Shown here piece after piece: positions 26,193-50,620 of a stretch of 64,000 nucleotides of DNA. Numbering within the stretch: the first letter of the stretch is position 1; each line of letters opens with the position of its first letter. Where the stretch lies: the NCBI RefSeq assembly GCF_900104955.1, contig NZ_FNSI01000001.1:2762001-2826000 (forward strand). The letters are read 5' to 3'. This stretch comes from Beijerinckia sp. 28-YEA-48. Its GTDB lineage: Bacteria > Pseudomonadota > Alphaproteobacteria > Rhizobiales > Beijerinckiaceae. A model generated the notes under the pieces. That model made no database searches and had not been told where the DNA came from. It worked only from the letters and a program-made list of their open reading frames with translations. The translations under genes and the position numbers were made by a program.

Positions 26193-27257
26193 TTATTCCG
26201 TCAGCTGTGTGAGAAGTGTGTGCGGACTGTGTTTTTGCATCGACTCGGTGAGGGTCTCAATCGAGGCATATGCATAGCGAGAATGACTGTCCTCGCTGTT
26301 GTGTCCGATGATGTCCTTTCGGTCCTCCTTTGACATTCCCAGTTGGCGCGTCCAGGACGCAAACGTATGACGCAAATCATGAATTCGCTTCGTGGGCAAG
26401 CCCGCCTTCTTGCGAAGAACGCCCCAACCCTCGTTGATCGAGACCCAGGGTTTACCGGTGTACGGGCTGGCAAAAACGTAGCGTGAGTTTGTGCGGGTGC
26501 GGAGCACCGACAGCGTGCGTAAAGCTGTGTCCGAGAGCGGGATCAAACGCCCCCGTTTTGTCTTCTCGCGAAGGTGGTTCAGATCGATCACCCGCTTGCG
26601 GAAATCGATCTCATCCCACTCCAGGTGGAGTGCCTCAGATTTGCGCATCCCAGTCTCCAGGATGAGCATAATGAAGAACGGCCAGAACCGATGGTCCTTG
26701 GCTGCGACGAGCAGTTTCCGAACCTCCTCGGGGCGAAGCCATCGGGGTTGGTACTTGGACTTCTTGAGGTGCTTCTTGTTGATCAACTTTATGGGGTTGA
26801 ACTCAGGAGCCCCCTCCATTTCATCAGCGATACAAAACTCGATGACGGTGCTGATGGCGCTCAGTTGCAACCGTAGCTGAATGTCCGGAATTTTGTTCTC
26901 TTTACGGACGGTCTTGATGTGCAGTCGAAACCAGGCTGGCGTCATCTCAGCCAGAGCCGGATCGCCCGCTTCGTGGATGAAGCGAGCAATCAGTTTCCCG
27001 TATTGATCAAGGGTCGTCTCTCGCAATTCGTTCGGGTTCGCCGCTGCGAACACGGTCCAGGCTGTGCTGAAGCGGACGCTGTGCTGAATAACGATGTCGC
27101 TTACAGCTTTGCGTTCTCTCTCATCCGCAACTTGTTGAGCCTGTTTTCGAGTTCTTGAGCCCTTTGCGATACCTGTGGAGATGCGTTTGATCGTACCTCC
27201 GACTTGCACTTCTGCGTACCAGAAGGGCGAGTCTTCTCTACTGTACAGTTTTGACAT
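26193..27257 (-). CDS. Phage tyrosine recombinase (integrase)
   Basis: An integrase of 354 residues. The N-terminal SAM-like core-binding domain is at about residues 60-150 and the catalytic domain at about 165-340. Catalytic residues: Arg in LETGMRKSEALHLEW, His and Arg in HDLRHTFASW, then GHNSEDSHSRYAYAS with the late His position and the Tyr nucleophile. It would integrate and, with a directionality factor, excise the phage. The C-terminus faces the host junction. Its first 52 codons overlap the upstream HTH gene in another frame. Confidence 0.95.
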   Translation of the reverse strand: MSKLYSREDSPFWYAEVQVGGTIKRISTGIAKGSRTRKQAQQVADERERKAVSDIVIQHSVRFSTAWTVFAAANPNELRETTLDQYGKLIARFIHEAGDPALAEMTPAWFRLHIKTVRKENKIPDIQLRLQLSAISTVIEFCIADEMEGAPEFNPIKLINKKHLKKSKYQPRWLRPEEVRKLLVAAKDHRFWPFFIMLILETGMRKSEALHLEWDEIDFRKRVIDLNHLREKTKRGRLIPLSDTALRTLSVLRTRTNSRYVFASPYTGKPWVSINEGWGVLRKKAGLPTKRIHDLRHTFASWTRQLGMSKEDRKDIIGHNSEDSHSRYAYASIETLTESMQKHSPHTLLTQLTE

Positions 27258-27751: not shown

Positions 27752-28464
27752 ACGCGTAACTCTCCACTCATACTAAGTTTCTCACTGAGCCGACGTTTGC
27801 GCGTTCCGTGTGCAGGAAAGCCAATAATGGTTCCTCCTGCTCGTGGGAATGCACATGCACGACACAGCATGCAGTTGGTGTCGAGATAGCTCGCTGGACA
27901 CAGAGCCACCCGATTACCTCCCGGTGTTCCGAAGCTGAGACGGCCACCAATCCGATCCCGAAAAGCACGAAGGCTTTCATCAGGGCGTTTGCTGAAACTC
28001 TCATCGACAACGGTGACGACAGGAAGTCCTGTCTTCACCAACTCGTCAGCTTCGTTTATGTCGTTCGCGGATAGGTTCACGTTGAACCCCAACGAACGGA
28101 TTTCATTGAATACACCATAGAACCTATGGTGCGTGTAGACAATTGCCTTCCGGCCGCCGTTTGCCTTCGCCAACGCACGAATCTGATCGTGGTTATTGGG
28201 CAAATCACCAGCTTGTCCGTAACGCCACACCTGATCGCGAGGCAGCTTGCGGATCGCAGCGAGAAGCTGATCGAAACTCAAAAGGTTTACAGCCTCGCCG
28301 TTCGAGACCTTGTCCCAATGCAAACGTAGCGGCCCATGCTCGGCATAGCAGCCGTTGTTCAAGAACGCGCAGGAAGTGGGACATGTATCACGTGACGACG
28401 TGACGACAGGGATAGGACCGGTCTTCTTATTTCGCGAGACAGCGGTCATGACAAAGTTTGCCAT
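27706..28464 (-). CDS. DUF7227-like phage protein
   Basis: A protein of 252 residues. The N-terminus KKTGPIPVVTSSRDTCPTSC and then GCYAEHGPLRLHW form a Cys-containing signature I associate with the phage family DUF7227. Further conserved-looking stretches are LPRDQVWRYGQAGDLPNN and CPASYLDTNCMLCRACAF. Seven or more cysteines suggest metal binding; the arrangement recalls radical-SAM-like or zinc proteins, but no function is known. I chose the ATG at 28464 (MANFVMTAVSR). A rho-independent terminator lies directly upstream, so the gene should have its own control. Confidence 0.8.
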   Translation of the reverse strand: MANFVMTAVSRNKKTGPIPVVTSSRDTCPTSCAFLNNGCYAEHGPLRLHWDKVSNGEAVNLLSFDQLLAAIRKLPRDQVWRYGQAGDLPNNHDQIRALAKANGGRKAIVYTHHRFYGVFNEIRSLGFNVNLSANDINEADELVKTGLPVVTVVDESFSKRPDESLRAFRDRIGGRLSFGTPGGNRVALCPASYLDTNCMLCRACAFPRAGGTIIGFPAHGTRKRRLSEKLSMSGELRVWERRRLPVENYSSA

Positions 28465-28481
28465 TCTACGTTCCATTAAAA

Positions 28482-28505
28482 AACCCGCCGGAAAACCGGC
28501 GGGTT
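28482..28505 (-). terminator. Rho-independent terminator of the 28535-28906 gene
   Basis: AACCCGCCGG / CCGGCGGGTT form a 10-base-pair stem with a four-base loop, followed on the minus strand by six T. It sits about 30 bases after the upstream gene's stop and only 17 bases before the DUF7227 start. Confidence 0.85.
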
Positions 28506-28534
28506 GTGGCCTCTGATAAATTTGATGGTTGGAC

Positions 28535-28906
28535 CTAGAACACTGGGCGGAAGGTGAAGACGCCATCGTCGATGCGACAGTCGACAGCCTTCATGCTGAC
28601 CCGGATCTCACAGCCCTCCGGAACGATGTGACGGGAACAGAAATCCCCAACGCCGTTCTCTTCGATATGGATTTTGGCGTTGCCCGGAATAAAGGTGCCG
28701 CTTTTTCTCAAGGCGAGCCAGCCGGTATCCTCGTCTGTACCAACGAGAACCTCAATTTGGTCCTTGTCCTTCCACCCCAGTTCCGCAAGAACTTCTGGGG
28801 GGAAGCGAAGAAGTCCCGTGAGGCCCTCGGGTAGAGCCCGAATACCGTAGCGGGGTTCGGTGAGAATATGCCGAACGCGTCGGGTTTCCTTTTTCACAAA
28901 CGACAC
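28535..28906 (-). CDS. Phage protein of unknown function with SD-sequestering leader
   Basis: A protein of 123 residues. It is beta-rich in pattern (IEVLVGTDEDTGWLALR, AKIHIEENGVGDF), with one Cys-His pair (FCSRHIVPEGCEIRV). No family was recognised. The ribosome-binding site CAGGAG lies in the 3' arm of a 10-base-pair inverted repeat (28915-28945), suggesting regulated translation. A terminator closes the unit, making it a monocistronic gene between DUF7227 and the rII-like pair. Confidence 0.7.
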   Translation of the reverse strand: MSFVKKETRRVRHILTEPRYGIRALPEGLTGLLRFPPEVLAELGWKDKDQIEVLVGTDEDTGWLALRKSGTFIPGNAKIHIEENGVGDFCSRHIVPEGCEIRVSMKAVDCRIDDGVFTFRPVF

Positions 28907-28994: not shown

Positions 28995-29906
28995 TTAGCG
29001 TCCTACGAGAAACTGGAAGAAGCGCGCGAGAAACGCTTGCTCTGCTGGATGCAGCTCCCGCTCCTTCATCACCTGGATCTCAACCCCGTCGATCTCCGGC
29101 TCATAGACTTTGTCCTCATCGATCCGGATCTCGTTCGTGCCCCAGTACTGGTTGATGGTGGTCTGATTGGCGTCGATGAAGTCGATGAGGTTCGCCTTGT
29201 CCATTTCCTGCAGAACCTCATAGCGGCAGACCCGCATCTTCTGACCGTGGTAGTCGCGAGGCACAGCGACCACGTCCTCTGGCCAGAAGGCACAGAGGAC
29301 CACGCGCTTGCCCGGGTCATGGAGTCCGTACGACGGCAGATAACGATAGGCGCCGAGGTGGAGACCTGTTGAGCACTCATGGTCTGGGTTCGGATCGACG
29401 TCCTGCCAGTCGACATGAACAATCTGACCCGGCGTATTGTCGAATGTCCCGGTGTAGACGTCCCGGAAGTTACCCCGGACAACCTTCAGCGCAGCGATAC
29501 GGCCATCCGGCAGGAAGCCGAGCTGGGATTGTTCGATGAAGATCGGCAGCCGTTCCCGCGCTTTCTCGGACGGATTGCGCATCAGGCTCGCCAGAGCCTC
29601 CACCAGGGCGCCAGTCGGAAGGTCTTTCTCGATGAAGCCGAAAAGCTTGTCGACCCAGACGTTGTGAATTTCGATGCCGTCGAAGGTGACGGCGTCGCCA
29701 AACACCGAGATGCGACCGTCAGTCGACTTGCTGAGCGCGATGCGAATGTCAGCCAGCTCGCACAACGTGTCGGCATCGAGATGACCTCGGAGCAGTCCTT
29801 CAGCGATCTTGGCGAAGTTGGCGTGATCCGACGCCACGGTGAAGACGCTCTTGTGAGCGAAGAACGTAAGGCTGTTGTCAGAAATCTGAAAGGGAATCTG
29901 GTTCAT
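28995..29906 (-). CDS. RIIB-like phage protein
   Basis: A protein of 303 residues resembling T4 rIIB: an N-terminal HTH-like part, VDKLFGFIEKDLPTGALVEAL, then FIEQSQLGFLPDGRIAALKVVRGNF-type core and the C-terminal hallmark CSTGLHLGAYRYLPSYG. The start ATG overlaps the stop of the RIIA-like gene by four bases, the same order and coupling as in T4. In T4, rIIA and rIIB affect lysis inhibition and exclusion by the RexAB system of lambda lysogens. The molecular function is unresolved. Confidence 0.85.
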   Translation of the reverse strand: MNQIPFQISDNSLTFFAHKSVFTVASDHANFAKIAEGLLRGHLDADTLCELADIRIALSKSTDGRISVFGDAVTFDGIEIHNVWVDKLFGFIEKDLPTGALVEALASLMRNPSEKARERLPIFIEQSQLGFLPDGRIAALKVVRGNFRDVYTGTFDNTPGQIVHVDWQDVDPNPDHECSTGLHLGAYRYLPSYGLHDPGKRVVLCAFWPEDVVAVPRDYHGQKMRVCRYEVLQEMDKANLIDFIDANQTTINQYWGTNEIRIDEDKVYEPEIDGVEIQVMKERELHPAEQAFLARFFQFLVGR

Positions 29907-32038
29907 TGATGCATGTTCTCCAGTTCAAAATAGCGGTTGAGGGCCGACATCAGAATGTCGTGGTCACGCTGATAGTACCCTCCGGCACTCCCTAGGGCGT
30001 GCGAGTATCTGCTGAGTAAGGCTGGGAGGACCGGGTACTTCTTCTCAATCGAGTCCCAGCGCTCATTGAGATCAATCGACGACTTTTTCTGAGCCAATGG
30101 ATGGCTGACGCCGAGTTCGCTATAGATGGTGATTAGCTTGCTCGTTGTCAGCTCCGCGACGGCGTCTTGCTTGTCTCGGCCCTTGAGGTACTTTTCATAG
30201 TCCCCGAACAACTTGAGCATCTCACTCGGCAGCGGTGCCGAGAACATCTTGTGGTGCTTGGCCATGTTGAGCAAGTTCGATCCGACACTGAACTTGCTGT
30301 TCAGAATGCGCTCGTATTCCCTCGCATCGAACTTTTTCTTCGCTTCCCCGATCAACCGATCCCCAAGCCACTCGAAGTGTGAAGGCACAGTATCGCTCGA
30401 TCGATAGACGAGGATCTTTTCATCTTCTGTGAGCAGACCCGTCTCCCGAGCCAACTGGAGCGCATAACCGATCCGGTTATCTGTAGGTCCGCCGTTGCGC
30501 AGTTTGTATCTGCGGGTCCGTCCTCCAGAGTAGCGTGTGTCAACAATGAACAGATGCTTCTCAGACAGGTCCAAATACTCAGTCCCATCGGGGTACACGT
30601 TCACCTTTGTCAGAGACTTATCCGGTCGAGCCCCTCGTTTGAGGACGGTCTTGGGTAGCACCACGTCGTCGAGACAGATAATGCCGGGGTTCTCGAACTC
30701 TTCGCGGAAAAGTGCCTTGAGTTGAGTCTTGAACGTGTCCAGGTCCGGGGGGCGGAGCCAAATGATGTTGGCCCCACTTTCCAGCGTCCCGTTGTCGACC
30801 AAGGCCTGGATCTTCTCGCCTGACCGATACGGCTTCAATTCATAGACGAAATATTTTATCCGACAGGACACTTCGTGTGGGTTGGTGTTGGGGCTCGAAA
30901 AACGGTTTCGGTTGTGGCGAAGCGCCCCGAATGTGTACCCACCTCCCTCGACCAGGGACTGCACGGTTGCCTTGGTGCCCACGGGGATCTTGTAGAACGC
31001 ATACCCCCCAACCGGCTTGCCTTCGAACGTCACCCTCTTCGCCAAGTATTCGGCAATCTTCCAATGCGTCGTTTTATGCACGTCCGAGAAGTACTCACGA
31101 ACCTCACGGAAGGTCTTGAGCTTGTCCACGGCGGCCTGCATCTTCTGGACATAGACCTGTTCGAACTCACCCAAGAGGCTCTTCAGCGTCGCCTTGGTCT
31201 TGTCGTCGTAGCCCAGCTCCTCTCGCGATGTCTGCACCATCACGCTGCCGATGGGAGCATCAAACAGGACGCTAAGGTTGTTCCAGGGCCAGTTCTCGAT
31301 GCCGAGCTGCTGCAAGTTGATAGGATAAGCGACGCAACCCATCCGCACCCAAGGCCCCGAGAAGGGCGCGTTCTCGAAGTGGGTCCAATTGTCTCCCGCC
31401 TTCGCAACCTTCGGCTCCTCCAGGAGGATCGGGGTCACTTTCGGGCGCGGGTTGAAGTGCCAAAGGATTGCCTGGGCCTTCTCCATGAACAGGGCGATAT
31501 CCGAGGACCGGACTGGGAATGACACTTCCAGTCCGGCCCTCTCTTCAGGCCCAGCCGCCCGAGTCAGCATCAGTTTGCATTGAGGCATGCCACCGTTGTT
31601 GAGTGACATGACGTAATGGTGGACCCTCCCTCCGTGGAACGACGTGACATTGAACGAAGCCACGCCGCTCTCGGTGATCAAGTATGCGAATGGCGACTTG
31701 GAGCCGAGCCCAAACCCACCGACATTGTCGTTGTCGTTACCCTTCGTGCCACCGAAGAAGGTCGCGTAGACGGTGACCATCTGATCGGGACTGAGCCCTG
31801 GGCCGTAGTCACGGACCCGGAACGTCGGAACCAGACGGGTCGGCAAATGCACTTCGAAGTCGCCACGAGCTGCATCCCAGGCGTTTGTGCAGATCTCACG
31901 GATCGGATACGCGATCTTATCCTTCGCGATACCCGACATGAGCTGGAACGCGGCTTTGGCGTTGAAATCGAACTTGAAGTTCGTGGTTTGTTCAGCGCCG
32001 GATGAAAAGTCGGTATAGTTGGGTTCAGCGAGCTGCAT
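29903..32038 (-). CDS. RIIA-like phage protein (GHKL ATPase)
   Basis: A protein of 711 residues with an N-terminal GHKL ATP-binding fold. The N box is REICTNAWDAARGD, the G1 box RDYGPGLSPDQM and the G2 box GGFGLGSKSPFAY. The long C-terminal part has no clear domain. The arrangement RIIA then RIIB with ATGA overlap matches T4 and related phages. I chose the ATG at 32038 (MQLAEPNYTD) over an upstream start at 32104. Ahead of it the 108-residue gene overlaps by 14 bases. Confidence 0.87.
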   Translation of the reverse strand: MQLAEPNYTDFSSGAEQTTNFKFDFNAKAAFQLMSGIAKDKIAYPIREICTNAWDAARGDFEVHLPTRLVPTFRVRDYGPGLSPDQMVTVYATFFGGTKGNDNDNVGGFGLGSKSPFAYLITESGVASFNVTSFHGGRVHHYVMSLNNGGMPQCKLMLTRAAGPEERAGLEVSFPVRSSDIALFMEKAQAILWHFNPRPKVTPILLEEPKVAKAGDNWTHFENAPFSGPWVRMGCVAYPINLQQLGIENWPWNNLSVLFDAPIGSVMVQTSREELGYDDKTKATLKSLLGEFEQVYVQKMQAAVDKLKTFREVREYFSDVHKTTHWKIAEYLAKRVTFEGKPVGGYAFYKIPVGTKATVQSLVEGGGYTFGALRHNRNRFSSPNTNPHEVSCRIKYFVYELKPYRSGEKIQALVDNGTLESGANIIWLRPPDLDTFKTQLKALFREEFENPGIICLDDVVLPKTVLKRGARPDKSLTKVNVYPDGTEYLDLSEKHLFIVDTRYSGGRTRRYKLRNGGPTDNRIGYALQLARETGLLTEDEKILVYRSSDTVPSHFEWLGDRLIGEAKKKFDAREYERILNSKFSVGSNLLNMAKHHKMFSAPLPSEMLKLFGDYEKYLKGRDKQDAVAELTTSKLITIYSELGVSHPLAQKKSSIDLNERWDSIEKKYPVLPALLSRYSHALGSAGGYYQRDHDILMSALNRYFELENMHQ

Positions 32039-32351
32039 TGAGTGCTTCCGCATAGATGTTTGGGTGATGCTGTTTGACGTGCGCGCAGATGCGCAGCGTC
32101 TCATCAGCGAGCTGATGTCGACGACGACGGAGAATGGTCAGGGCTTGGTGCTTGAGGCGGAGCGAGTAAGTCGCTTTGGTCCGCCAATCTTTGCCACGGT
32201 GTGGCTCTTCGAGCTGACCCTTGATGACCATAATCGAGTCCTCAAGGTAGATGAGTGCTTGGTCGCACTGCTCTATCGTCGTAACGTCATCAACCCGCCA
32301 TCCTTGGCTGTTGATGTACAGGGTCACGGATCGGTCTTCCTTTCGGTGCAA
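32025..32351 (-). CDS. Small phage protein, basic and helical
   Basis: A protein of 108 residues. After a beta-like start (VTLYINSQGWRVDD) it becomes Arg/Lys/Gln-rich and probably helical (SLRLKHQALTILRRRRHQLA). No family was recognised. It overlaps the RIIA start by 14 bases, so its translation probably feeds into the rII pair. Confidence 0.6.
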   Translation of the reverse strand: MHRKEDRSVTLYINSQGWRVDDVTTIEQCDQALIYLEDSIMVIKGQLEEPHRGKDWRTKATYSLRLKHQALTILRRRRHQLADETLRICAHVKQHHPNIYAEALNAAR

Positions 32352-32553
32352 ATGTGACTTCGCTCTCGAAGGGTCCAGCTTCGAGAGCGAGTTTTATCCA
32401 GGGGAGATATTTTTCAGGGACGCTGTGGAGACCTGGGTCGATGTCGAGCAACCAGTCGCCTGCATCTTTGGCGTGTCGACGGCTATCGGAATTGCGATAG
32501 AGCCAGTCTGCGAGGTCTTCGGCCTCCTGAGTGTCAGCGAGGCGAAGGATCAT
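32290..32553 (-). CDS. Small acidic phage protein of unknown function
   Basis: A protein of 87 residues starting MILRLADTQEAEDLADWLYRN. The start codon overlaps the stop of the upstream gene (ATGA). Its 3' end overlaps the next gene by 62 bases in another frame. No domain was recognised. Confidence 0.6.
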   Translation of the reverse strand: MILRLADTQEAEDLADWLYRNSDSRRHAKDAGDWLLDIDPGLHSVPEKYLPWIKLALEAGPFESEVTFAPKGRPIRDPVHQQPRMAG

Positions 32554-32969
32554 GCTGCCTGCTTGATCCGGAGCACCTTCCGCCACTCGGGCTTGCCGGT
32601 GTCGAGGAAGTTGGTGATGGCTTTGGCGGCTTGTTTAGGGGTTATCCGGCTGTAGGCATAATCATCGTTACCCCCATCACCCCCAAGCGGAAAGTACAGC
32701 TCCCCGAGCGGTCCCTCGGCATTGCAAACGTAGCTTCTAGGACTGAAGTTGTCACACAGATGGGCAACCCAGCCACCTATGCAACGCACTGTTCCGCAAT
32801 CGAACTCCCCCTCGAACTCCACCATGTTGAAGATGGGCTTCTTGCAGGGGACGTAGCGGTAGATGGGCTCCTTGACATGGACGTACTCACCCGCCTGCAA
32901 CCCATCACGCACCTTCACCAGGGCGTTACGCTCCTTGATCGAGATTCCCAGATCCTTCGGCTTCAGCAT
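32550..32969 (-). CDS. Phage protein with CGTVRCIGGW motif, distant relative of the 40.3-41.1 kb pair
   Basis: A protein of 139 residues. It contains FDCGTVRCIGGWVAHLC and, near the C-terminus, ITPKQAAKAITNFLDTG. The same layout (DCG-x3-C-x2-G, then an AA-K/R-I-x2-L segment) occurs in the two paralogues at 40348-41134. The three probably share a fold that uses the paired cysteines. The function is unknown. The SD-bearing ATG lies at 32969. Confidence 0.68.
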   Translation of the reverse strand: MLKPKDLGISIKERNALVKVRDGLQAGEYVHVKEPIYRYVPCKKPIFNMVEFEGEFDCGTVRCIGGWVAHLCDNFSPRSYVCNAEGPLGELYFPLGGDGGNDDYAYSRITPKQAAKAITNFLDTGKPEWRKVLRIKQAA

Positions 32970-39146: not shown

Positions 39147-39374
39147 TCAGCGGTCGACCACTGCCAGCTCGCAATGGATCACGTGTTTGAGGTTGAGGTA
39201 CCAAGAGGAATCGTCGATGGACCGAATTCTGGCCCAGCCATCTCCGCTGATGCTCAGCACTTCCCAAGCCTTGGACTCGACGTGACCATTGATGAGACCA
39301 ACGTTGGAGATCATGACCTTCTTGGCGGGGTCTAGGCCGTTGACCTGGTTAAACAACGTGATTGGTGTGTTCAT
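39147..39374 (-). CDS. Small beta-rich phage protein
   Basis: A protein of 75 residues (MNTPITLFNQVNGLDPAKKV) with several short strands (AWEVLSISGDGWARI, YLNLKHVIHCELAVV). AAGGTG stands 7 bases before the ATG at 39374. It overlaps the upstream paralogue gene by 26 bases. Confidence 0.62.
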   Translation of the reverse strand: MNTPITLFNQVNGLDPAKKVMISNVGLINGHVESKAWEVLSISGDGWARIRSIDDSSWYLNLKHVIHCELAVVDR

Positions 39375-39735
39375 CAATCACCTTCGTGTTGAGACCATTC
39401 TCCCCGGCGAACTTCGCAAAATGAGCCGGCCACTCCGATACCTGTGACTTGTCGTGAACCTTTTGCAGGTCCCGGAAGAAGTCAAAATTCTCGAGCCCGA
39501 CACCGAGGCCTTCTGTGAGCACAGCCTCAAGCATGACGTCGTCGCCATTGTCGAACTTGGGGCTGTATTTATCGTCGGGGATCAGCATCCCTACCGCGCA
39601 CTTGTGGCCTTGCGGGCTCCGGTACATACAGAAGATGTCGTCCTCGTCCTTCTTCCGCAACGACCGGGTGCCCTGCTTCAGCAACCCACCGACTGCGCGA
39701 TCGAAATAATCCTGCTTCTGTTCTTGGGTAAGCAT
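39349..39735 (-). CDS. Phage protein, paralogue of the 44162-44548 protein
   Basis: A protein of 128 residues. CMYRSPQGHKCAVGMLIPDD matches CRYRGPNGTKCALGILITDD of the gene at 44162-44548, and both are followed by FFRDLQKVHD / EFLAAIQDAHD and a similar C-terminus (FAGENGLNTKVID / IAAQYGLNPQVLD). The two copies lie on either side of the DUF6197-like array. The paired Cys residues suggest a small metal or disulfide site; the function is unknown. Confidence 0.72.
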   Translation of the reverse strand: MLTQEQKQDYFDRAVGGLLKQGTRSLRKKDEDDIFCMYRSPQGHKCAVGMLIPDDKYSPKFDNGDDVMLEAVLTEGLGVGLENFDFFRDLQKVHDKSQVSEWPAHFAKFAGENGLNTKVIDEHTNHVV

Positions 39736-40187: not shown

Positions 40188-40355
40188 TTACGCCCTGACG
40201 AGCAGTTCTTTAACCTCGTCCTTGAGCGTGGCTTCGTCCTCCCAAAGGCGCGGTGGACGGTCCCAGTCGTTGAGATCACACTTGAGTGCCCGGATCGCAT
40301 TGTCGATCCGGTCGTCGATGAGACGTACGAGAGCCTCGAACTGTTCCTCAGACAT
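40188..40355 (-). CDS. Very small acidic phage protein
   Basis: A protein of 55 residues, helical and acidic (MSEEQFEALVRLIDDRIDNA, EDEATLKDEVKELLVRA). The start at 40355 overlaps the end of the upstream paralogue gene by eight bases. No family was recognised. Confidence 0.6.
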   Translation of the reverse strand: MSEEQFEALVRLIDDRIDNAIRALKCDLNDWDRPPRLWEDEATLKDEVKELLVRA

Positions 40356-40746
40356 AGCAAAGGGGCTCCTCGCCGCTCTGCTGCTCAGCCCAGTTCTTAG
40401 GCAGACCATGCTCGAGCAGCCAGTAGATGCGCTTGGCAGCTCCCTGTGGAGTATTGTCTAGGTAACTCCACCCTGGTCCGAAGGCCCAGTCCCACTCGTC
40501 CGAGTAGTGGGCGAGGTCGAACTGATTGCGTGAATAGCTCTGCCACGAGTAGCAATCCGCGCTGGGCTCAATACCCGCTGCGGGGCCATGACCAAGAGCA
40601 CACGCAATTGCGCCGCAATCGTGCTTCGCCGGGCTGTATTCGTGATCCCGGTAAGCGCTAACGCAGTACCATTTCATGTCAAACTCGTACTCCACACGGC
40701 CGGTGATGAGATAGTCTGCGAGTTTTCTGAGGTTGTCTCTATTCAT
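40348..40746 (-). CDS. Phage protein, first of a tandem paralogue pair (CGxxAC-GHGPAAG family)
   Basis: A protein of 132 residues. It shares with its upstream neighbour the N-terminus NLRKLADYLITG, the core DCGAIACALGHGPAAGIEP and the C-terminus TPQGAAKRIYWLLEHGLPKN followed by EPLCY. A more distant relative is at 32550-32969. The two cysteines and the His of the core may bind metal. The function is unknown. It arose by tandem duplication with its neighbour. Confidence 0.72.
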   Translation of the reverse strand: MNRDNLRKLADYLITGRVEYEFDMKWYCVSAYRDHEYSPAKHDCGAIACALGHGPAAGIEPSADCYSWQSYSRNQFDLAHYSDEWDWAFGPGWSYLDNTPQGAAKRIYWLLEHGLPKNWAEQQSGEEPLCYV

Positions 40747-41134
40747 AGCAGAGAGGCTCCGTACGCATCATCTGTTTGTGCCAGTTCGACGGTAGTCCCT
40801 CGTCGAGGAGCCAATAGATGCGCCTCGCGGCCCCCTCCGGCGTGTTATCCGATCTTTCCCAGCTACCGGAGAAGAGCCACATACCCTCGTCGCTGAATAA
40901 CGAGAGGCCGAAATGGCGTCTCACATAGGTCGTCCAGGACTCATCCTTCTTGATAGGTTCGATCCCGGCGGCGGGTCCATGCCCAGCTGCGCAGGCGACG
41001 GTACCGCACTCATGGACCAACGGGGCGAGATCATCGCCGTACTCGTCGCGGCAGAAGGACCCCATATCGAAACGGCACGCGGTGGTGCCCGTTGCGAGGT
41101 AGTCGGCCAGCTTCTTGAGGTTTTCACGATGCAT
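40739..41134 (-). CDS. Phage protein, second of the tandem paralogue pair
   Basis: A protein of 131 residues: NLKKLADYLATG, ECGTVACAAGHGPAAGIEP and TPEGAARRIYWLLDEGLPSN. It is colinear with the neighbour over its whole length; the stop overlaps the neighbour's ATG by eight bases. I chose the ATG at 41134, which overlaps the first member of the DUF6197-like array by 11 bases. Confidence 0.72.
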   Translation of the reverse strand: MHRENLKKLADYLATGTTACRFDMGSFCRDEYGDDLAPLVHECGTVACAAGHGPAAGIEPIKKDESWTTYVRRHFGLSLFSDEGMWLFSGSWERSDNTPEGAARRIYWLLDEGLPSNWHKQMMRTEPLCYE

Positions 41135-41477
41135 TGGCGATAGCCTTATCCAAGAGTGCGAGTACTTCCCCGTGTTTACGGTTGTCTGCATCGTTGAACG
41201 CGATGACGATATCCGCTGCCACACCGTTGTTGTGGAGGTCTTTGGCCTCGGGTTCGATCAGCTTTGCGAGCGTCGACACCACTGCTGCCCGTGACCAGTG
41301 CGGTAGTTCGACCGCTCGGAGGGCGCCGAAGAGACACCAGCAGACCGCAGCTCCGCTCTCCGGAAGGAGCCCTGACATTCCGTCAGCGTTACGGGCGAGG
41401 CTATGTTGCGTCCACCGATCCGGGGTCGCCAGGTGGTTGCGGACAGCTTTGAGATTTTCAAGAAGCTGATTTGACAT
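41124..41477 (-). CDS. DUF6197-like array member 1
   Basis: A protein of 117 residues: LENLKAVRNHLATPDRWTQH, AAVCWCLFGALRAVEL and FNDADNRKHGEVLALLDKAI. All three family blocks are present. The signature matches my recollection of DUF6197, a small family of phages and actinobacteria without known function. The ATG is at 41477; its stop region overlaps the start of the CGxxAC paralogue. Confidence 0.75.
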   Translation of the reverse strand: MSNQLLENLKAVRNHLATPDRWTQHSLARNADGMSGLLPESGAAVCWCLFGALRAVELPHWSRAAVVSTLAKLIEPEAKDLHNNGVAADIVIAFNDADNRKHGEVLALLDKAIANAS

Positions 41478-41835
41478 TGGCGATGGCCTCATCGAGTACG
41501 TTCAGGACGTCGTCGTGAGTGGTTCTCCGGTCGTCATTGAAGGTCGGGATGTCGCTGTGCGTGCGGGTCACGACGATCTGGATCGCGCCCTCCAACGCTT
41601 TCCAGCGAGGGTTTTTCTCGCTGGTGTCGTATGTCAGTTCATCGAGTTGGTTGGGAAACTCACCCTCGGCCACCACCTTATTCATGGCACCGAGCATGCA
41701 GTAGCAGGTGGCATACGTCGACCAGGGCTCAATCTGGGATTGCTCCTCGTCCATAGCATAGTAGTCCCGTGTCCACTTCGCGGGCGGCGTCAGCAGGGTG
41801 CGGACAGCCTTCAGATCTTCAAGAAGCTGTGACAT
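41458..41835 (-). CDS. DUF6197-like array member 2
   Basis: A protein of 125 residues, the longest member, with an insertion between the blocks. LEDLKAVRTLLTPPAKWTRD, YATCYCMLGAMNKV and FNDDRRTTHDDVLNVLDEAI are present; Tyr replaces the usual Trp in CWC, as in member 7. It overlaps member 1 by 20 bases and the 46-residue basic gene by 17. Confidence 0.75.
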   Translation of the reverse strand: MSQLLEDLKAVRTLLTPPAKWTRDYYAMDEEQSQIEPWSTYATCYCMLGAMNKVVAEGEFPNQLDELTYDTSEKNPRWKALEGAIQIVVTRTHSDIPTFNDDRRTTHDDVLNVLDEAIANVKSAS

Positions 41836-41959
41836 GCTGAAACACCCTCTTCCCTGAGTTGCGATAGGTCTTGCCCTTGGCAAATGTGGGCTTGACCCGC
41901 GTGATGACAGACGTTTTCTTCGCGCGACGGAGGGCCGCGCGTTTGACTTGGCGTGACAT
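41819..41959 (-). CDS. Tiny, very basic phage protein (46 residues)
   Basis: A short gene from ATG 41959 to a TGA at 41819 encodes MSRQVKRAALRRAKKTSVIT and ends with SGKRVFQHVTAS. About a third of the residues are Lys or Arg, with almost no acidic residue, suggesting nucleic acid binding. Its 3' end overlaps array member 2 by 17 bases, and it fills the gap between members 2 and 3. Confidence 0.6.
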   Translation of the reverse strand: MSRQVKRAALRRAKKTSVITRVKPTFAKGKTYRNSGKRVFQHVTAS

Positions 41960-41972
41960 GTGGGAAGTCTCT

Positions 41973-42293
41973 CTACTTAGAAAACATGATGGCGAGGTCG
42001 ATGACGCTCATGACGTCGCGATGCGTGGTGTTGGGGTGGTCATGCCAATGAAGAAGGCTATCGTGGCGCCAATGGACGTGCCCCTGGAGAGCGTTCCATA
42101 ACGCTCGCCCACGTGGTTTGTCCCCGTCGGCAATCGCGTGCACCGCAAGTGGTACGCAATACCTGCCGGCTTCGGTGCGATAGGAAAGCGGAATACCATT
42201 GATGTCGAAGTGGATCATGTTCTTGGTCCACTTTTCTGGCAAGTCGACGAGGCTGCGCAGGGTGTGGAGATCAGCGAGGAGCTGACTATTCAC
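41973..42293 (-). CDS. DUF6197-like array member 3 (diverged)
   Basis: A protein of 106 residues from a GTG at 42293. The N-terminal LRSLVDLPEKWTKN and the C-terminal HDHPNTTHRDVMSVIDLAI identify it as a family member. The central CWCL-x-GA block has become RYCVPLAVHAI, losing one cysteine and the Gly-Ala. It may have a changed or lost activity. The GTG overlaps the stop of the upstream gene by eight bases. Confidence 0.68.
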   Translation of the reverse strand: MNSQLLADLHTLRSLVDLPEKWTKNMIHFDINGIPLSYRTEAGRYCVPLAVHAIADGDKPRGRALWNALQGHVHWRHDSLLHWHDHPNTTHRDVMSVIDLAIMFSK

Positions 42294-42567
42294 CCCTGCC
42301 AAAATAATCCTCGATCGCCTGCTGGACCTCAACATAGAACGGGCCGGTCCAGTCTTTCACCCACTGCGGCGCGTTCGGATGGTTTCGTAAGTCGTCAGTT
42401 GCATACTGGTCATCGACCAGTGCGAGGGCAGCATACTCCCCCATTGCAACAATCTGGTCAGTGACATCCCAGGTCGTAGGTCCATAGGGATCGACTTCGA
42501 CCGCGTAGTCGCGTACCCACGCCTGGGGGACGAAACGGGCGACGATGCGGTGGGTATCCTCAGGCAT
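42286..42567 (-). CDS. Small acidic phage protein inside the array
   Basis: A protein of 93 residues (MPEDTHRIVARFVPQAWVRD) that lacks the family blocks. It has a Trp/Asp-rich core (YGPTTWDVTDQIVAMGEYAA) and a WTGPFYVEVQQAIEDYFG end. It is inserted between members 3 and 4 and overlaps both by eight bases. No function is known. Confidence 0.65.
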   Translation of the reverse strand: MPEDTHRIVARFVPQAWVRDYAVEVDPYGPTTWDVTDQIVAMGEYAALALVDDQYATDDLRNHPNAPQWVKDWTGPFYVEVQQAIEDYFGRGE

Positions 42568-42865
42568 TGGCGATGGCCTTATCCAAGAGTGCAAGCACGT
42601 CGGAGTGCCTGGTGTTGGGGTGGTCGTTGAAATTAGCAATGCTCCGACCGTCCCCGATGGCGTGGTAGAGGGCAGAATTGACCTCATTTTCCCGATCGAA
42701 GGGCAGAAGCTTTCGGCCAGCACCGACGAGACACCAGCACGTTGCGCTCTCATTCTGAGGGTGGACATGAAGGCGATGCTTGTTCATCGCCAACCAACCC
42801 TGCGTCCACCGGTTCGGGTCCGAGAGCAGGTCGCGGACAGCGGTGAGGTCCTGTTTGAGGGTCAT
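42560..42865 (-). CDS. DUF6197-like array member 4
   Basis: A protein of 101 residues with clean family blocks: LTAVRDLLSDPNRWTQG, SATCWCLVGAGRKL and FNDHPNTRHSDVLALLDKAI. The DNA around its end (TTGGCGATGGCCTTATCC on the plus strand) is nearly identical to the end of member 1, indicating recent duplication or gene conversion. Confidence 0.77.
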   Translation of the reverse strand: MTLKQDLTAVRDLLSDPNRWTQGWLAMNKHRLHVHPQNESATCWCLVGAGRKLLPFDRENEVNSALYHAIGDGRSIANFNDHPNTRHSDVLALLDKAIANA

Positions 42866-43182
42866 GGGTTGGCCTCGATCACTTTATCAAGGAAGGCCAT
42901 GACACCCGGGTGAGTACCGTTGTCGTTAAGGGTGAGGTACGAACCTGGTTCTGTGGCAGCCGCCGTAAGAGCCTTGTCCACGGCGTGGAAGCGGGACCAG
43001 TGTTGTCTGGCGTGGAGCTTGGCGTTCGCTCCGTTCAGGCACCAACACGTAGCTGCGGGATGGTTAAATGTTACGCCACAACCCTCGTGGTCGCGAGCAT
43101 TCTCGCCCTTGGTCCATTTGGCGGGATCGGAGAGGAGTGTGCGGATTGCTCGGAGGTCAGTGTTGAGTTGGGATGCGGACAT
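42862..43182 (-). CDS. DUF6197-like array member 5
   Basis: A protein of 106 residues: LRAIRTLLSDPAKWTKGENA, AATCWCLNGANAKL and a shortened ending LNDNGTHPGVMAFLDKVIEA. AAGGAG precedes the ATG at 43182. It is coupled to member 4 by ATGA overlap. Confidence 0.77.
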   Translation of the reverse strand: MSASQLNTDLRAIRTLLSDPAKWTKGENARDHEGCGVTFNHPAATCWCLNGANAKLHARQHWSRFHAVDKALTAAATEPGSYLTLNDNGTHPGVMAFLDKVIEANP

Positions 43183-43233
43183 GCGTTATCGCTCCTTCCC
43201 TGGGCGGGAGAACGGACGTGATTGTGGGTGGTG

Positions 43234-43554
43234 CTAGGGCGCGGCGGCTATCGCTTGGTCGAGCAGGTTCAGGACGTCGTCGTGCCTGGTCGAACCGTTG
43301 TCGTTGAAGGTAATGAAGCCCGTCCGCCCTGGTACCGCTGCATTCAACGCGCTATCAAGAGCATCGTACCGTCTGGTGTAGCGGGCATCCGTGATCTTAA
43401 TCATTGCACCATTCAGGCACCAACAGGTGGCGTTGTCGTCATCGGGGAGTGCCTGCCGACCGAGTGCGTCACGGGCATTGAAGTTTTTCGTCCATCTGTC
43501 AGGCGTATCGAGGAGCTGGCGGATAGCCTGAAGATCAGCCTTGAGCTGAGACAT
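43234..43554 (-). CDS. DUF6197-like array member 6
   Basis: A protein of 106 residues: LQAIRQLLDTPDRWTKNFNA, NATCWCLNGAMIKI and FNDNGSTRHDDVLNLLDQAI. It overlaps member 7 by 20 bases, and a gap of 51 bases separates it from member 5. It is very close in layout to members 5 and 7. Confidence 0.77.
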   Translation of the reverse strand: MSQLKADLQAIRQLLDTPDRWTKNFNARDALGRQALPDDDNATCWCLNGAMIKITDARYTRRYDALDSALNAAVPGRTGFITFNDNGSTRHDDVLNLLDQAIAAAP

Positions 43555-43855
43555 GTGCGATGGTCCTGTCCAAGAGGTTGAGGACGTCGTGGTGATTTGT
43601 GTTGGGGTCGTCGTTGAAGTCAGCGATGCTCTTGTCATAGGTGGGGATATGAAACCGCACAGCGTTCTTCACATCGCGTTGTTCTTCAGGAGATGCAACG
43701 GAGTTGATCGCGCCCAACATGCAGTAGCAGGCGGCATTGCTGCTTTCGGCAAACGTAGGGTTTCCGCTCTCATCTTTAGCAAGATACCCCTTCGTCCACT
43801 TCGTCGGGTCCGCGAGGAGTGCGCGGACCTTGGTGAGGTTCTCGAGCAGGGTCAT
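43535..43855 (-). CDS. DUF6197-like array member 7
   Basis: A protein of 106 residues: LTKVRALLADPTKWTKGYLA, NAACYCMLGAINSV and FNDDPNTNHHDVLNLLDRTI. The CYCML variant is shared with member 2. It is coupled to member 8 by ATGA overlap. Confidence 0.77.
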   Translation of the reverse strand: MTLLENLTKVRALLADPTKWTKGYLAKDESGNPTFAESSNAACYCMLGAINSVASPEEQRDVKNAVRFHIPTYDKSIADFNDDPNTNHHDVLNLLDRTIAHVSAQG

Positions 43856-44187
43856 TGGGCTGCCTCGATTGCTTTGTTGAGCAATGACATGACGTCATCG
43901 TGGGTGGTGTTCGGGTCGTCGTTGAAGCCGACATAACCCCCATGGTTCGTAGGCACCGACCGGGTCAGGATGACTCTGATTGCCGCGTAACGGCCCTCAT
44001 CATCATCATCTAACAGACCTACCTTGGCCGCAGCCCCATCCAGGCACCAGCACACTGCCGTGGGGTGATCCGAAGTGCAGATGTCGCCATCGCGATCCCT
44101 CGCAAAGGCATCCTGTGTCCACGCTGAGGGCGTGGACAGCAGGTCTCGCATGGCGATGAGGTCAGTTTTGAGTTGGGACTGGGACAT
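43852..44187 (-). CDS. DUF6197-like array member 8
   Basis: A protein of 111 residues: LIAMRDLLSTPSAWTQDAFA, TAVCWCLDGAAAKV and FNDDPNTTHDDVMSLLNKAI, with an acidic loop DDDDEGRYAA before the last block. The ATG at 44187 lies inside the 3' end of the 44162-44548 gene. Confidence 0.77.
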   Translation of the reverse strand: MSQSQLKTDLIAMRDLLSTPSAWTQDAFARDRDGDICTSDHPTAVCWCLDGAAAKVGLLDDDDEGRYAAIRVILTRSVPTNHGGYVGFNDDPNTTHDDVMSLLNKAIEAAQ

Positions 44188-44548
44188 TGTCGAGCACCTG
44201 AGGGTTGAGGCCGTACTGGGCTGCGATGTTGCGCATTTCCTGGAGCCACGCGGTGAGCGGGCCACCTTTTGTTTCGGGCATATGGTTGTCGTGCGCGTCT
44301 TGGATCGCGGCGAGAAACTCCACGTGGTTGTTGAAACGGACCAGCTCGAAGGCCGGGATCGCGCTCCAAGCGCTGTGTCCTTCCATCTCCCTCACGTACT
44401 CGTCGTCAGTTATGAGGATGCCGAGCGCACACTTGGTACCGTTGGGGCCGCGATATCGACAATCGTTGTTGTGATTGATTGACCGAACACCCTGAGCGAC
44501 GAGACCCGTGGCCACAGTGTCGAAGATTTCCTGCTTGGTGAGAGACAT
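44162..44548 (-). CDS. Phage protein, paralogue of the 39349-39735 protein
   Basis: A protein of 128 residues with the motif CRYRGPNGTKCALGILITDD and helical C-terminal half (FLAAIQDAHDNHMPETKGGP). The closest relative in view is the 39349-39735 protein on the other side of the array. AAGGAG precedes the ATG. It separates array members 8 and 9 together with the membrane-protein gene. Confidence 0.72.
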   Translation of the reverse strand: MSLTKQEIFDTVATGLVAQGVRSINHNNDCRYRGPNGTKCALGILITDDEYVREMEGHSAWSAIPAFELVRFNNHVEFLAAIQDAHDNHMPETKGGPLTAWLQEMRNIAAQYGLNPQVLDNVPVPTQN

Positions 44549-44606
44549 GCGTCCTCCTTCACGCTGTGGTTCAGCGTGTTGTAGTGGGCTTGGGTTGTGG
44601 GAATGG

Positions 44607-44807
44607 TTAGGGAAGGTGGCGCATCACCAGCCAGTAGAGACTGTTGTAGTCATCACCTGTTGGTGCTTGCTCCATGTTATTCAGGCGGGTGTCGTACACC
44701 GCGACACGGGTCCGAATGTCTTGCATGGTTTGGTGCAGTTTAAGGTACTGACGCGCGATATAACCCGCGAGCAGTACCCCTGGGAGAAGGCCGAGAAGGA
44801 ACCCCAT
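44607..44807 (-). CDS. Small single-helix membrane protein with coiled coil
   Basis: A protein of 66 residues: one N-terminal helix (MGFLLGLLPGVLLAGYIARQ) and a polar helix with heptad character (YLKLHQTMQDIRTRVAVYDT). The ATG shares one base with the stop of array member 9 (TGATG). Spanin- or Rz-like topology is conceivable but unsupported. Confidence 0.6.
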   Translation of the reverse strand: MGFLLGLLPGVLLAGYIARQYLKLHQTMQDIRTRVAVYDTRLNNMEQAPTGDDYNSLYWLVMRHLP

Positions 44808-45109
44808 CAGGGTGTGGCCGCGATGGTGCGGTCGATCAGGTCAAGGACCATGGGGTGAGTGGTGTTGGGGTCGTCGTTGAAGACGGAAATCCTATGGTCA
44901 CCGAGTTGTGCTCTCAGTGCGAGAACGCATGCAGTGTATGCAGGCCCGTCGGGGTTTGTGCGGCCAATTGCACCATACAGGCACCAGGACTTCGCCAGGG
45001 TGGGATCATAGGTTTGATTACCATCGATATCCCGTGCACCTGCGTTCTGGGTCCAGTTCTCTGGAGGCGTCAGGAGAGTGCGGACAGCCTGAAGGTGAGC
45101 TTTGAGCAT
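44807..45109 (-). CDS. DUF6197-like array member 9
   Basis: A protein of 100 residues: LQAVRTLLTPPENWTQNAGA, LAKSWCLYGAIGRT and FNDDPNTTHPMVLDLIDRTI. The first cysteine of CWC is replaced by Ser (SWCL), so strict conservation of two cysteines is not needed. It is separated from members 1-8 by two genes. The first gene in transcription order of the whole array. Confidence 0.76.
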   Translation of the reverse strand: MLKAHLQAVRTLLTPPENWTQNAGARDIDGNQTYDPTLAKSWCLYGAIGRTNPDGPAYTACVLALRAQLGDHRISVFNDDPNTTHPMVLDLIDRTIAATP

Positions 45110-48100: not shown

Positions 48101-50620
48101 CTACTTCGACGGCTTCGTCGGCTTCGTCGGATCGACAATCGTGAGGAACCTGTACGCTGAGTCCCCCGACCCGGCTCTGGAAGTCTTGCCCAGACCGTCC
48201 AACACTTCCTTGAAGCCGAACTCCTTCTGCAACTGGCGCATACGATCGATAAAGGTCTCGTATGCCGCAGGCTGCACATTCGCCTCGCTGACGCAGAACA
48301 AGCGGTAGGCGAGATAAACCTGCCGGGCGGGTGTGGTAGCCTCGCTCGATGCCCCGTTCTCGCCAACCCCCAGCTTCAGGTGTCCCCGATGATGAGAGTT
48401 GGCGAGGAAAAAACGGACAGGGTTCGTCCGATTTTCAACGCGTTTACATAGCTCCAAGCTGCTGGCGGGCACGCAATACTCCGCGCGATCCTTCAATGTG
48501 ATCAGCCCCTGCACTGCCCATGCCGCGATGGCCTCCCGTTCCTGCTCCAAGATCAGCTGATCGATGTTGACGATGCGATCTTTCGTCTCGATGGAGTTGG
48601 AGAACTCCAAGAACAACCAGCGACGGGTGAAGCCTGCCGATGAGTCATCGGTACGAGGCAGAACGTTGGAGGCGAACCAGTGAGCAGCGATCGGATTGAA
48701 CTTGTAGAGGGGTTGGTACTTACGTTGAGCCTGAATAGTGGAACCTTCCACCACCAGCTTGAAGATATCACCCGAGATGAGGTCCCGCTCCGATAGCTCA
48801 CCTGCAACATTGAGCACCTTGTCGGTCAGCTCCGCGACCGAGAACTGGTTGTTCCAGAACTTCGGAGCCACCGCTGCTGCACAACCATCAGGCATCAGGC
48901 CCTGCATAATGCGTAGAATACGTGATTTACCCGTATCAGCTGGGCCATAGAGACAGAACACGCGGAAGTACTGTGGCGCCACACCAAACAGGGTGGCTGC
49001 AAAAGCCTCCTGCAGAGCCTCAACCTTGTCGGCAAAGTCAGGATCGGTGCCCCAATAACGCACCAGAAGCTCCGAAAACATCGTCGCTTTGCCCGCCAAC
49101 TCCGGCTGGTAGGGGTAGGGAAGCACATAAGTGCAGCCAAAGTCCTTGTTATGGGGCTGTAACGTCAGATCTTCGGTCAGATAGCCATTGACGAAGTTTA
49201 TGCCCCGGATATCGCGTTGTTTGAGGTCAGCACGCGTCAACGTCGCCATAACCTTCACGACAGCGCGATAGTCGTTGTCCTTCTTGCATGCCGGGAAGTT
49301 GCCATACTCCGTGGCCACGATCTTCTGCAGGTCAGCGGCCTCCATTGGCACCCAATGCGCGCCTTGCCATTGGTAAAACATCTCATTGGAGAAGCGTAGC
49401 TCCCCTGTCCGCTCGACATTGTCGATGACAGCACGCGCGATCTCGGTCTGATCGTTGCCCGCAATGTCGCCCTTCTGAAATTCGCGAATTTGCCGAAGGA
49501 TGCTTGCGGCGGTGAGGTTGTTCGCCGTCGCACCCTGGAGCACTTTCACAATATGCTGCTGCTCGAGCGGTGTGATGCCTGGATTACCGGCCACGCGCGC
49601 GCACATAATCCCAACCAACTCGGTCATCTTCGGGTTGGTGTGGTCGAGACCGTCTGACTGGATCTTCGCATGGAAGTCGTCGATGATCTCCTGATACGAG
49701 AAACGCCGGTTTTCACTGGTGATGTCGTCGAGGCCCAGCTCTTTCAGCTGGTCTACGGTCATACCCTCATCCCAACCAGCTGGAAGCGTCAGCTTTTTCG
49801 GGCCAAAAAGGTCCTTCCGCAGCCATTCGACGATCTTTTCCGTCATCTTTGCAGGCGGGAGTTCGTCTCCCGGAACCTTTTCGACACGGTCCTGCACCCA
49901 CTGAAAACCGACGTCCAGACCCTCTTTCAGGGTGATATTGCCCTTGATGATGTCGGAAACGATGCCACCGGCGAAGCGGACGAGCGCATTATCGCGCCCA
50001 CCAGCCGGAACCCAGTTCACAAAGCCGACGCGCGCAGCACCTGAAGCCACCTCGTAGCCGTTCTGACGCAGCGCATCGCGGGCCAGCTCGCCAAACGACG
50101 TCGGCAAGGTGCCAATCTGGCCTAGCACGTCCAGCAGATCGCAGTTGGCGGTGTAGGGCGCCATCAATCCCGGATGGATCGAGGGCGGCAACAACACCTG
50201 AGCACCCGTCGACAGGAAGTCGAGGACGTTGGTGCCGTCCGCGAGCTTCACGTGGAAGGTGTTCTGGCCCTGATACTTGAACAGCTTGACGTAGCCCTTG
50301 CGCCCACGACGCAGCCACGGCGATTTCGGTGTGATGCTGTCGATAGCATTCAGTATGCCCGGTTCGTCACTATCGACGTCGAGCGCAACAAGGCCAGAAG
50401 CCTGCCCCAGAACCAGGCCCATGTTGTGGTCCGGAAACATCTGCAGCCAACCGGCTTGCTCGGCATCCCCAACGGGCACGGCCGAGTAACGCTGCCAGGT
50501 AGAAATCGCAGGACGCTTGCCGGCCGCCTTGTCGGCCCCGGACGGGTCGGGTCGTGTGATCGGGATAACCGATAGTCCAGCAGCCCAATAGCCTGGCGCG
50601 TTCTCACTAAAAATACCCAT
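48101..50620 (-). CDS. Phage primase-helicase (PrimPol plus D5-type SF3 helicase)
   Basis: A replication protein of 839 residues. The N-terminal part has a bifunctional primase/polymerase (AEP) pattern: MGLVLGQASGLVALDVDSDE (metal-binding Asp pair) and STGAQVLLPPSIHPG. Residues from about 480 form the D5/DUF5906 and SF3-type helicase: Walker A CLYGPADTGKSRILR, then NVAGELSERDLISGD and HWFASNVLPRTDD with sensor Asn. It should prime and unwind phage DNA. The C-terminus ends VDPTKPTKPSK; a downstream frame shows 30 further protein-like residues. Confidence 0.9.
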   Translation of the reverse strand: MGIFSENAPGYWAAGLSVIPITRPDPSGADKAAGKRPAISTWQRYSAVPVGDAEQAGWLQMFPDHNMGLVLGQASGLVALDVDSDEPGILNAIDSITPKSPWLRRGRKGYVKLFKYQGQNTFHVKLADGTNVLDFLSTGAQVLLPPSIHPGLMAPYTANCDLLDVLGQIGTLPTSFGELARDALRQNGYEVASGAARVGFVNWVPAGGRDNALVRFAGGIVSDIIKGNITLKEGLDVGFQWVQDRVEKVPGDELPPAKMTEKIVEWLRKDLFGPKKLTLPAGWDEGMTVDQLKELGLDDITSENRRFSYQEIIDDFHAKIQSDGLDHTNPKMTELVGIMCARVAGNPGITPLEQQHIVKVLQGATANNLTAASILRQIREFQKGDIAGNDQTEIARAVIDNVERTGELRFSNEMFYQWQGAHWVPMEAADLQKIVATEYGNFPACKKDNDYRAVVKVMATLTRADLKQRDIRGINFVNGYLTEDLTLQPHNKDFGCTYVLPYPYQPELAGKATMFSELLVRYWGTDPDFADKVEALQEAFAATLFGVAPQYFRVFCLYGPADTGKSRILRIMQGLMPDGCAAAVAPKFWNNQFSVAELTDKVLNVAGELSERDLISGDIFKLVVEGSTIQAQRKYQPLYKFNPIAAHWFASNVLPRTDDSSAGFTRRWLFLEFSNSIETKDRIVNIDQLILEQEREAIAAWAVQGLITLKDRAEYCVPASSLELCKRVENRTNPVRFFLANSHHRGHLKLGVGENGASSEATTPARQVYLAYRLFCVSEANVQPAAYETFIDRMRQLQKEFGFKEVLDGLGKTSRAGSGDSAYRFLTIVDPTKPTKPSK

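Follow-up and report, generated by a model that had tools for sequence, protein, structure and literature searches.

DUF6197 genes in more than one copy have been described in Gordonia phages of cluster A15, such as Nebulosus, which are reported to carry a second DUF6197 gene or proteins with two tandem DUF6197 domains (PMC10586128). In another viral group, homologues of AcrID1 are clustered among the early genes of four rudiviruses, a pattern described as duplication with possible functional diversification (PMC11065993). For DUF6197 itself, no function in print was found under the names searched. Here we describe a run of nine separate DUF6197 genes in a prophage of Beijerinckia sp. 28-YEA-48, whereas the A15 phages have two genes or two fused domains (PMC10586128). 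The window, which is the whole stretch analysed (64,000 nucleotides; contig NZ_FNSI01000001.1, positions 2,762,001 to 2,826,000), sits within a 5.9-Mb contig of a 6.4-Mb bacterial genome, and the array occupies positions 41124-45109 of it on the minus strand, as are all genes whose positions are given below in the form 44807..45109. Multiplication of this uncharacterised family recurs but has been little described, and the present case is unusually large.

The array holds nine intact open reading frames (ORFs) of 100-125 amino acids (aa), named m1 to m9 in transcript order: m1 (44807..45109, 100 aa), m2 (43852..44187, 111 aa), m3 (43535..43855, 106 aa), m4 (43234..43554, 106 aa), m5 (42862..43182, 106 aa), m6 (42560..42865, 101 aa), m7 (41973..42293, 106 aa, probably starting at the GTG at 42293), m8 (41458..41835, 125 aa) and m9 (41124..41477, 117 aa). 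The Cys motif is CWCL in m2, m4, m5, m6 and m9, CYCM in m3 and m8, SWCL in m1 and YCVP in m7. Eight of the nine passed the PF19698 gathering score of 24.6 bits, at 38.7-65 bits (m1 57, E 2.8e-15; m2 62.4; m3 63.6; m4 49.8; m6 58.7; m7 38.7, on 41973-42287; m8 65; m9 63.9), and the same eight matched phrog_762, a family of unknown function. Only m5 had no Pfam match at E<=1, and it did not match phrog_762 either; against a profile of its eight siblings it scored 91.6 bits (E 2.2e-25). Such leave-one-out profiles recovered every copy at 67.6-120.7 bits (m1 at 81.6, m7 lowest at 67.6), while the top score of 500 shuffles per protein was at most 11.5 bits. Because the real scores far exceed the shuffled ones, chance similarity is excluded.

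In the alignment of the nine, mean column identity is 43%, and 13 columns are identical in all copies (L2, L6, R10, P16, W19, T20, A39, C43, A47, D79, H85, V88 and I96, in m1 numbering). The family core read from the alignments is Trp, Cys-x-x-Gly-Ala and Asn-Asp; its Trp, Cys and Asp are kept in 9/9, and m7 deviates by lacking the Gly and by having His in place of Asn. Both m5 and the N-terminal third of m7 lie beyond what the Pfam model detects. A first-pass annotation of this DNA had proposed, from the sequence alone, that the nine genes are one family and had given it the name DUF6197. The alignment, the PF19698 scores and the leave-one-out profiles bear out the first claim, the profile results exclude a failure to align as one family, and the name proved correct. 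The copies are 32-43% identical to m1, and their isoelectric points (pI) span 4.4 to 7.15; with this range, DNA mimicry as a general property was dropped.

We modelled the structure of one copy, m3, with AlphaFold. The model has a mean predicted local distance difference test (pLDDT) score of 97.6 and a predicted template modelling (pTM) score of 0.89, with helices at 3-13, 46-53, 56-67, 77-82 and 88-105 (m3 numbering, used for all residues from here on). On this model, DUF6197 is predicted to be one compact, mostly helical fold with a nearly invariant core of W20, C45, G48-A49 and N81-D82. Among 60 aligned rows, C45 and D82 are present in 60/60, W20, A41, G48, A49 and N81 are altered in at most 5% (N81 is kept in 95%), and H88 is found in 68%, being otherwise Y (15%) or Q (8%); every one of the array copies retains C45, D82 and H88. 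Foldseek searches with the m3 model gave no PDB match better than E 3.4. At E<=0.001 there were ten matches, all of them predicted viral proteins for which no function is stated, and the model matches predicted phage proteins at the level of the same fold, for example one from Motura (TM scores 0.86/0.78). A DUF6197 sequence profile had no match among PDB chains at E<=1.

The element is a JWF/Seuss-like siphovirus prophage, with the array on the primase side. It is a prophage because an integrase gene is present (26193..27257, PF00589 E 1.9e-21, near the left prophage end) and the element is embedded in a bacterial contig. Upstream of the array lies a phage DNA primase gene (48101..50620, phrog_1156 E 2e-76, 38.9% identical to the Seuss primase), and beyond it are divergent terminase and portal genes, in the same order as in Caulobacter phage Seuss. 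DNA similarity extends also to Achromobacter phages JWF and 2-1 and Xylophilus phage Lumi. The relatives of the phage suggest an alphaproteobacterial host. The array arm also holds a helix-turn-helix (HTH)-like protein and RIIA-like and RIIB-like genes. The setting is of an early or DNA-metabolism type, as the description "phage early region" had implied, but the phage here is integrated. A search by exact words gave no convincing attachment-site (att) repeat, the longest candidates being 14 bases (low complexity) and 13 bases, and the right prophage end was not found in the 40 kb following the window. Close phage relatives are few: the primase scan gave none and the terminase scan one 5.4-kb contig, the terminase being found in 2/385 genomes including the prophage's own.

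We then compared copy number across records. Scans of viral contigs gave 35, 22 and 25 DUF6197 loci in overlapping sets, and a scan of genome contigs gave two loci (loci and records carry our labels, L or G with a number). Copies were counted in 42 plus nine further whole records (51), with Seuss included for comparison. The 50 records other than Seuss represent 48 distinct ones, three contigs with identical arrays being counted once; the six Motura matches were counted as five, since two lie in one gene, and G089 and G090, between which one DUF6197 copy is nearly identical, were counted apart. In this sample, which was found by pattern, contains many fragments and is not random, one copy is present in 30 records, two in seven, three in four, four in four, five in two and six in one. 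The nine in the window exceed all 48. The statement that most phages carry one copy thus holds for 30/48, but 18/48 hold at least two, with six as the highest count. Copy number does vary between phages, as had been anticipated, from zero in Seuss to nine here. As to a fixed single copy with a structural role in related phages, no relative with such a role was seen, and Seuss has no copy; this comparison covers the few close relatives.

Hosts of the DUF6197 phages include alpha-, beta- and gammaproteobacteria, myxobacteria, cyanobacteria and actinobacteria. Motura, Mx1, BUCT-ZZ01, pf16 and RHph_I1_18 resemble the window in having adjacent DUF6197 genes among small hypothetical genes, with two to four neighbouring copies versus nine, and the hosts of these five range from Achromobacter and Pseudomonas to Myxococcus and Synechococcus. 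Multi-copy DUF6197 runs recur in unrelated phages. Most genes next to DUF6197 in other contigs are unnamed; those with names include genes for recombination, replication and methylases.

Among 61 bacterial genomes including the prophage's own, DUF6197 was over the cut-off in that genome only. Among 398 genomes across the phylum, five were over it: the prophage's own, G437 and three of one genus. By sequence, G437 holds a real single DUF6197 copy (L074 1098-1433) among small genes in another proteobacterial genome. The three matches of one genus (L075-L077) are barely over the PF19698 cut-off within a 973-aa frame and look like chance; the one that was read, L075, we take from its motifs to be an M16-type peptidase, and L009, below the cut-off, is presumably MotA/TolQ-like on the same kind of evidence. 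Fused domains were dropped as a clue to function, because the matches in the 973-aa frame look like chance.

To place the nine copies among their relatives, a tree of 80 rows was used, from which rows below 35 bits and two duplicate loci, L019 and L020, were omitted. The pf16 copies and the Mx1 copies each fall into a starred group by phage, and the Motura and L027 copies into unstarred ones. As these copies group by phage, several separate expansions of DUF6197 are suggested. The L030 copies stand together only relative to other runs, with five single rows within their fork, and the copies of the window, L018, L014, L011, L066 and L012 are mixed with copies of other phages. The tree as found requires six changes between the nine and the other groups, and forcing the nine into one clade was neither supported nor rejected (approximately unbiased test, p-AU 0.171); of the 77 inner branches, 48 are open. 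It is likely that copies multiplied within a phage and also that older or exchanged lineages contributed.

The nine are old copies under constraint. Identity at third codon positions among them is 0.27-0.46 by segment, while the protein ends keep about 50% amino-acid identity. That 13 residues, C45 and D82 among them, are shared by 9/9 despite such divergence at third positions implies selection on each copy. Along four m3 segments (N-terminal end, hairpin-Cys, middle and C-terminal end), amino-acid identity among the nine is 0.49, 0.34, 0.17 and 0.51, compared with 0.31, 0.42, 0.12 and 0.32 among 22 rows from other contigs, three of which (L017, L042 and L043) come from records with a second copy. 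Relative to the outside rows, the nine resemble one another more at the ends, vary about as much in the middle and are somewhat less similar in the hairpin-Cys segment. The first-pass annotation had read the variation in loops and Cys motif as a sign that each copy recognises a different target. This was not supported: the middle segment is no pointer to diversifying targets, because it is equally variable outside the array.

For the hairpin-Cys segment, pairs were matched by end identity. Window pairs gave 0.29 (9 pairs), 0.34 (18) and 0.42 (8), versus 0.37, 0.38 and 0.40 for pairs from different records in the same bins, and pooled paralogue pairs were about equal to pairs from different records. 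The mean residual is -0.036 in the window and -0.047 in L014, and near or above zero in L018, L030, L027 and L011; the pairs are not independent, and these differences carry no significance test. The small hairpin-Cys deficit of the window pairs is the sole hint toward different targets, and other runs differ in its sign.

How the genes are joined was also examined. The nine copies of the proposed tandem array are all present, but three other small genes interrupt the run, and the transcript order is m1, a 66-aa gene, a KCAVG-type gene, m2-m6, an acidic 93-aa gene, m7, m8, m9, H1 and H2. The 66-aa gene (44607..44807) has a hydrophobic N-terminus and overlaps the m1 stop by 1 base; it had no Pfam match and no PHROG match better than E 0.028. 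The KCAVG-type gene (44162..44548, 128 aa) matches phrog_17693 (E 1.1e-30; AlphaFold pLDDT 93.6), and the acidic gene (42286..42567, pI 4.2), which overlaps m6 and m7, is without a Pfam match. H1 (40739..41134, 131 aa, CGTVACAAGHG) and H2 (40348..40746, 132 aa, CGAIACALGHG) are downstream and overlapping, and are 54% identical to each other. Of the 13 junctions, 10 overlap by 1 to 26 bases, and the remaining gaps are 58, 51 and 137 bases. Seven DUF6197 genes overlap the start of the next gene; in six of them (all but m1), a purine-rich GAGG, AAGG or AGGA, read by eye, lies in the codons of the last helix and ends 7 to 9 bases upstream of the next ATG. The 3' ends of m6 and m9 share an exact repeat of 17 bases (42576-42592 and 41143-41159), immediately ahead of where two unrelated genes, 42286-42567 and H1, start, and the AAGG inside it could be the putative ribosome site of both. 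This layout looks like ordinary translational coupling, and such junctions would permit copies and foreign genes to be inserted as units.

The reading we favour, and put forward tentatively, is that the DUF6197 copies are small soluble early proteins that bind host components and act as several related inhibitors or adaptors for takeover or counter-defence. We infer that they would be made early. The constant core would maintain the fold or bind a ligand common to all copies, and the choice of binding partner would fall to the middle helix and loop, which vary; with a run of copies, the phage would have several such inhibitors or adaptors to use against its host. In favour are the nine intact members, the confident m3 fold, the setting with primase, HTH-like and RII genes, the recurrence and the constraint. 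An anti-defence role is possible by analogy with AcrID1, whose clusters are likewise clustered viral paralogues among early genes; AcrID1 is an anti-CRISPR, DUF6197 is without known function, and the likeness is one of analogy, not of membership (PMC11065993). Several results weigh against this proposal. Promoter-like sites are no more numerous than in shuffles, and the middle segment, which would choose the partner, is as variable in copies taken from other contigs as it is within the array. PADLOC, which covers defence proteins and not their inhibitors, matched only single members of the 60 (best E 0.0097), and NCBIfam matched none. No known anti-defence family was seen among the neighbours of DUF6197, as judged from 25 of the 47 Pfam and 25 of the 104 PHROG families.

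Other explanations account for part of the same evidence. The copies might share one activity or ligand, as small-molecule binders or enzymes working through the invariant Cys and Asp (with His88 in the nine), and differ in substrate preference only. The conservation of C45, D82 and N81, and that of H88 within the nine, speaks for this, but relatives replace H88 by Tyr or Gln, the fold resembles no solved structure, and in the model the conserved residues lie near helix starts and ends, where capping alone could account for them; we consider a shared activity doubtful. It is unlikely, in our estimate, that the array merely reflects how easily tandem genes are gained and lost in an accessory region, under weak or changing selection and with no special joint function. 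The range from zero copies to nine, the equal variability of the middle segment inside and outside arrays, and a tree that leaves one clade for the nine unsettled, fitting mixing and exchange, would all agree with it; nine of nine open frames, with a core kept despite far-diverged third positions, would not. We think it quite unlikely that, instead of having separate targets, the copies assemble into a mixed oligomer or serve to raise the dose. The overlapping junctions would favour coupled, balanced synthesis, but the single copy of 30/48 records, some of them fragments, implies that a second copy is not needed there, and copies only 32-43% identical to m1 are too diverged for simple dosage.

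If every copy does have a host partner of its own, as the favoured proposal would have it, the array would open the way to a number of unknown targets of defence or takeover together. In any case, a phage family that multiplies repeatedly is a good place to seek host-interacting proteins, and the array supplies nine natural variants in one genome as a panel for binding and defence screens. DUF6197 combines a broad phage host range with a fold that is predicted confidently and for which no solved counterpart was found.

Besides DUF6197, the cluster holds members of two other small cysteine-motif families, the KCAVG type (phrog_17693) and the CG(T/A)xxCA genes H1 and H2. A second KCAVG-type gene (39349..39735, 128 aa, phrog_17693 E 6.4e-22) lies beyond H2. 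Viral contigs contributed 148 neighbour ORFs (of 183 including the named phages), and no PHROG family is commoner among them than phrog_17693, whose five ORFs are spread over four contigs (L011, L014, L018 with two, and L024). In L011, L014, L027, L037 and the window, a phrog_17693 gene comes directly after DUF6197 genes or sits between them, and L011 also has an H-type gene about 0.3 kb from a DUF6197 gene. A 14-kb stretch of Synechococcus phage BUCT-ZZ01 contains one phrog_17693 gene and one H-type gene along with three DUF6197 genes. In whole records, 8/38 DUF6197 records hold phrog_17693 (Mx1 weakly, E 1.2e-4), a proportion that has no background rate for comparison; the ninth positive record is Seuss, which is without DUF6197, and DUF6197 was found in 0/16 contigs reached through phrog_17693. 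This family too occurs in several copies: four in pf16, three each in L048 and L060, and two each in L050, L051, L058 and Seuss. A scan for H1/H2 relatives gave none; H1 relatives are present in Agrobacterium phages OLIVR5/6. Within the window, a small protein at 32550-32969 with CGTVRCIGGW resembles H1 and H2 by eye, and had no Pfam match and no PHROG match better than E 0.078.

Like DUF6197, phrog_17693 proteins are small; in both, Cys-x-x-Gly stands where a helix begins, a conserved Asp precedes the C-terminal helix and the predicted elements come in a similar order, but the profile comparison pairs the wrong helices. With hhalign, the two families gave E 0.061 across 22 columns around the Cys motif. 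With deeper alignments, the real global/local scores (16.2/22.0) were above all 60 column-permuted controls (best 9.1/15.9), and the match was out of register, pairing the last helix with the first. The Foldseek results of the m3 and phrog_17693 models have four common targets among the matches listed, the weaker E being 0.62-3.6. Common descent of DUF6197 with phrog_17693 or with the CG(T/A)xxCA genes is not shown by the hhalign profile comparisons. A wider picture, which we regard as decidedly improbable, is that DUF6197, phrog_17693 and CG(T/A)xxCA genes form mixed expandable cassettes with one shared unsolved fold, serving phages of very different hosts as modular inhibitors, one per host target, that are swapped gene by gene through overlapping junctions.

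A link to phage NAD+ salvage was considered as well, in which DUF6197 would work with it as a NARP2-like counter to NADase defences. Two unrelated phages suggested it: Myxococcus phage Mx1 (L069 4263-8639) has three DUF6197 genes directly before a NAMPT gene, with NMNAT further on; in BUCT-ZZ01 (L088 10280-14388), three DUF6197 genes adjoin NMNAT and NAMPT genes, and contig G093 has a NAPRTase match about 6.5 kb from its single DUF6197 gene. However, DUF6197 was present at 0/49 viral NAMPT loci (flanks up to 5 kb, some shorter), and NAPRTase was found in 6/43 records of the DUF6197 set versus 4/16 records found through phrog_17693. Restricted to records of at least 110 kb, the counts are 6/9 and 4/6, so NAPRTase follows genome size. 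The prophage's own genome has no NAPRTase match. On the 49 loci, the 59 whole records and this genome, the link was rejected as a general explanation, and we hold it to be most improbable.

Two further observations concern the prophage. A RIIB-like gene (28995-29906, phrog_609 E 1.6e-55) adjoins a RIIA-like gene (29903-32104, phrog_612 E 1.1e-88) in this integrated phage, and a DUF7227 protein (27706-28566, PF23872, E 2.3e-78) is encoded next to the integrase end.

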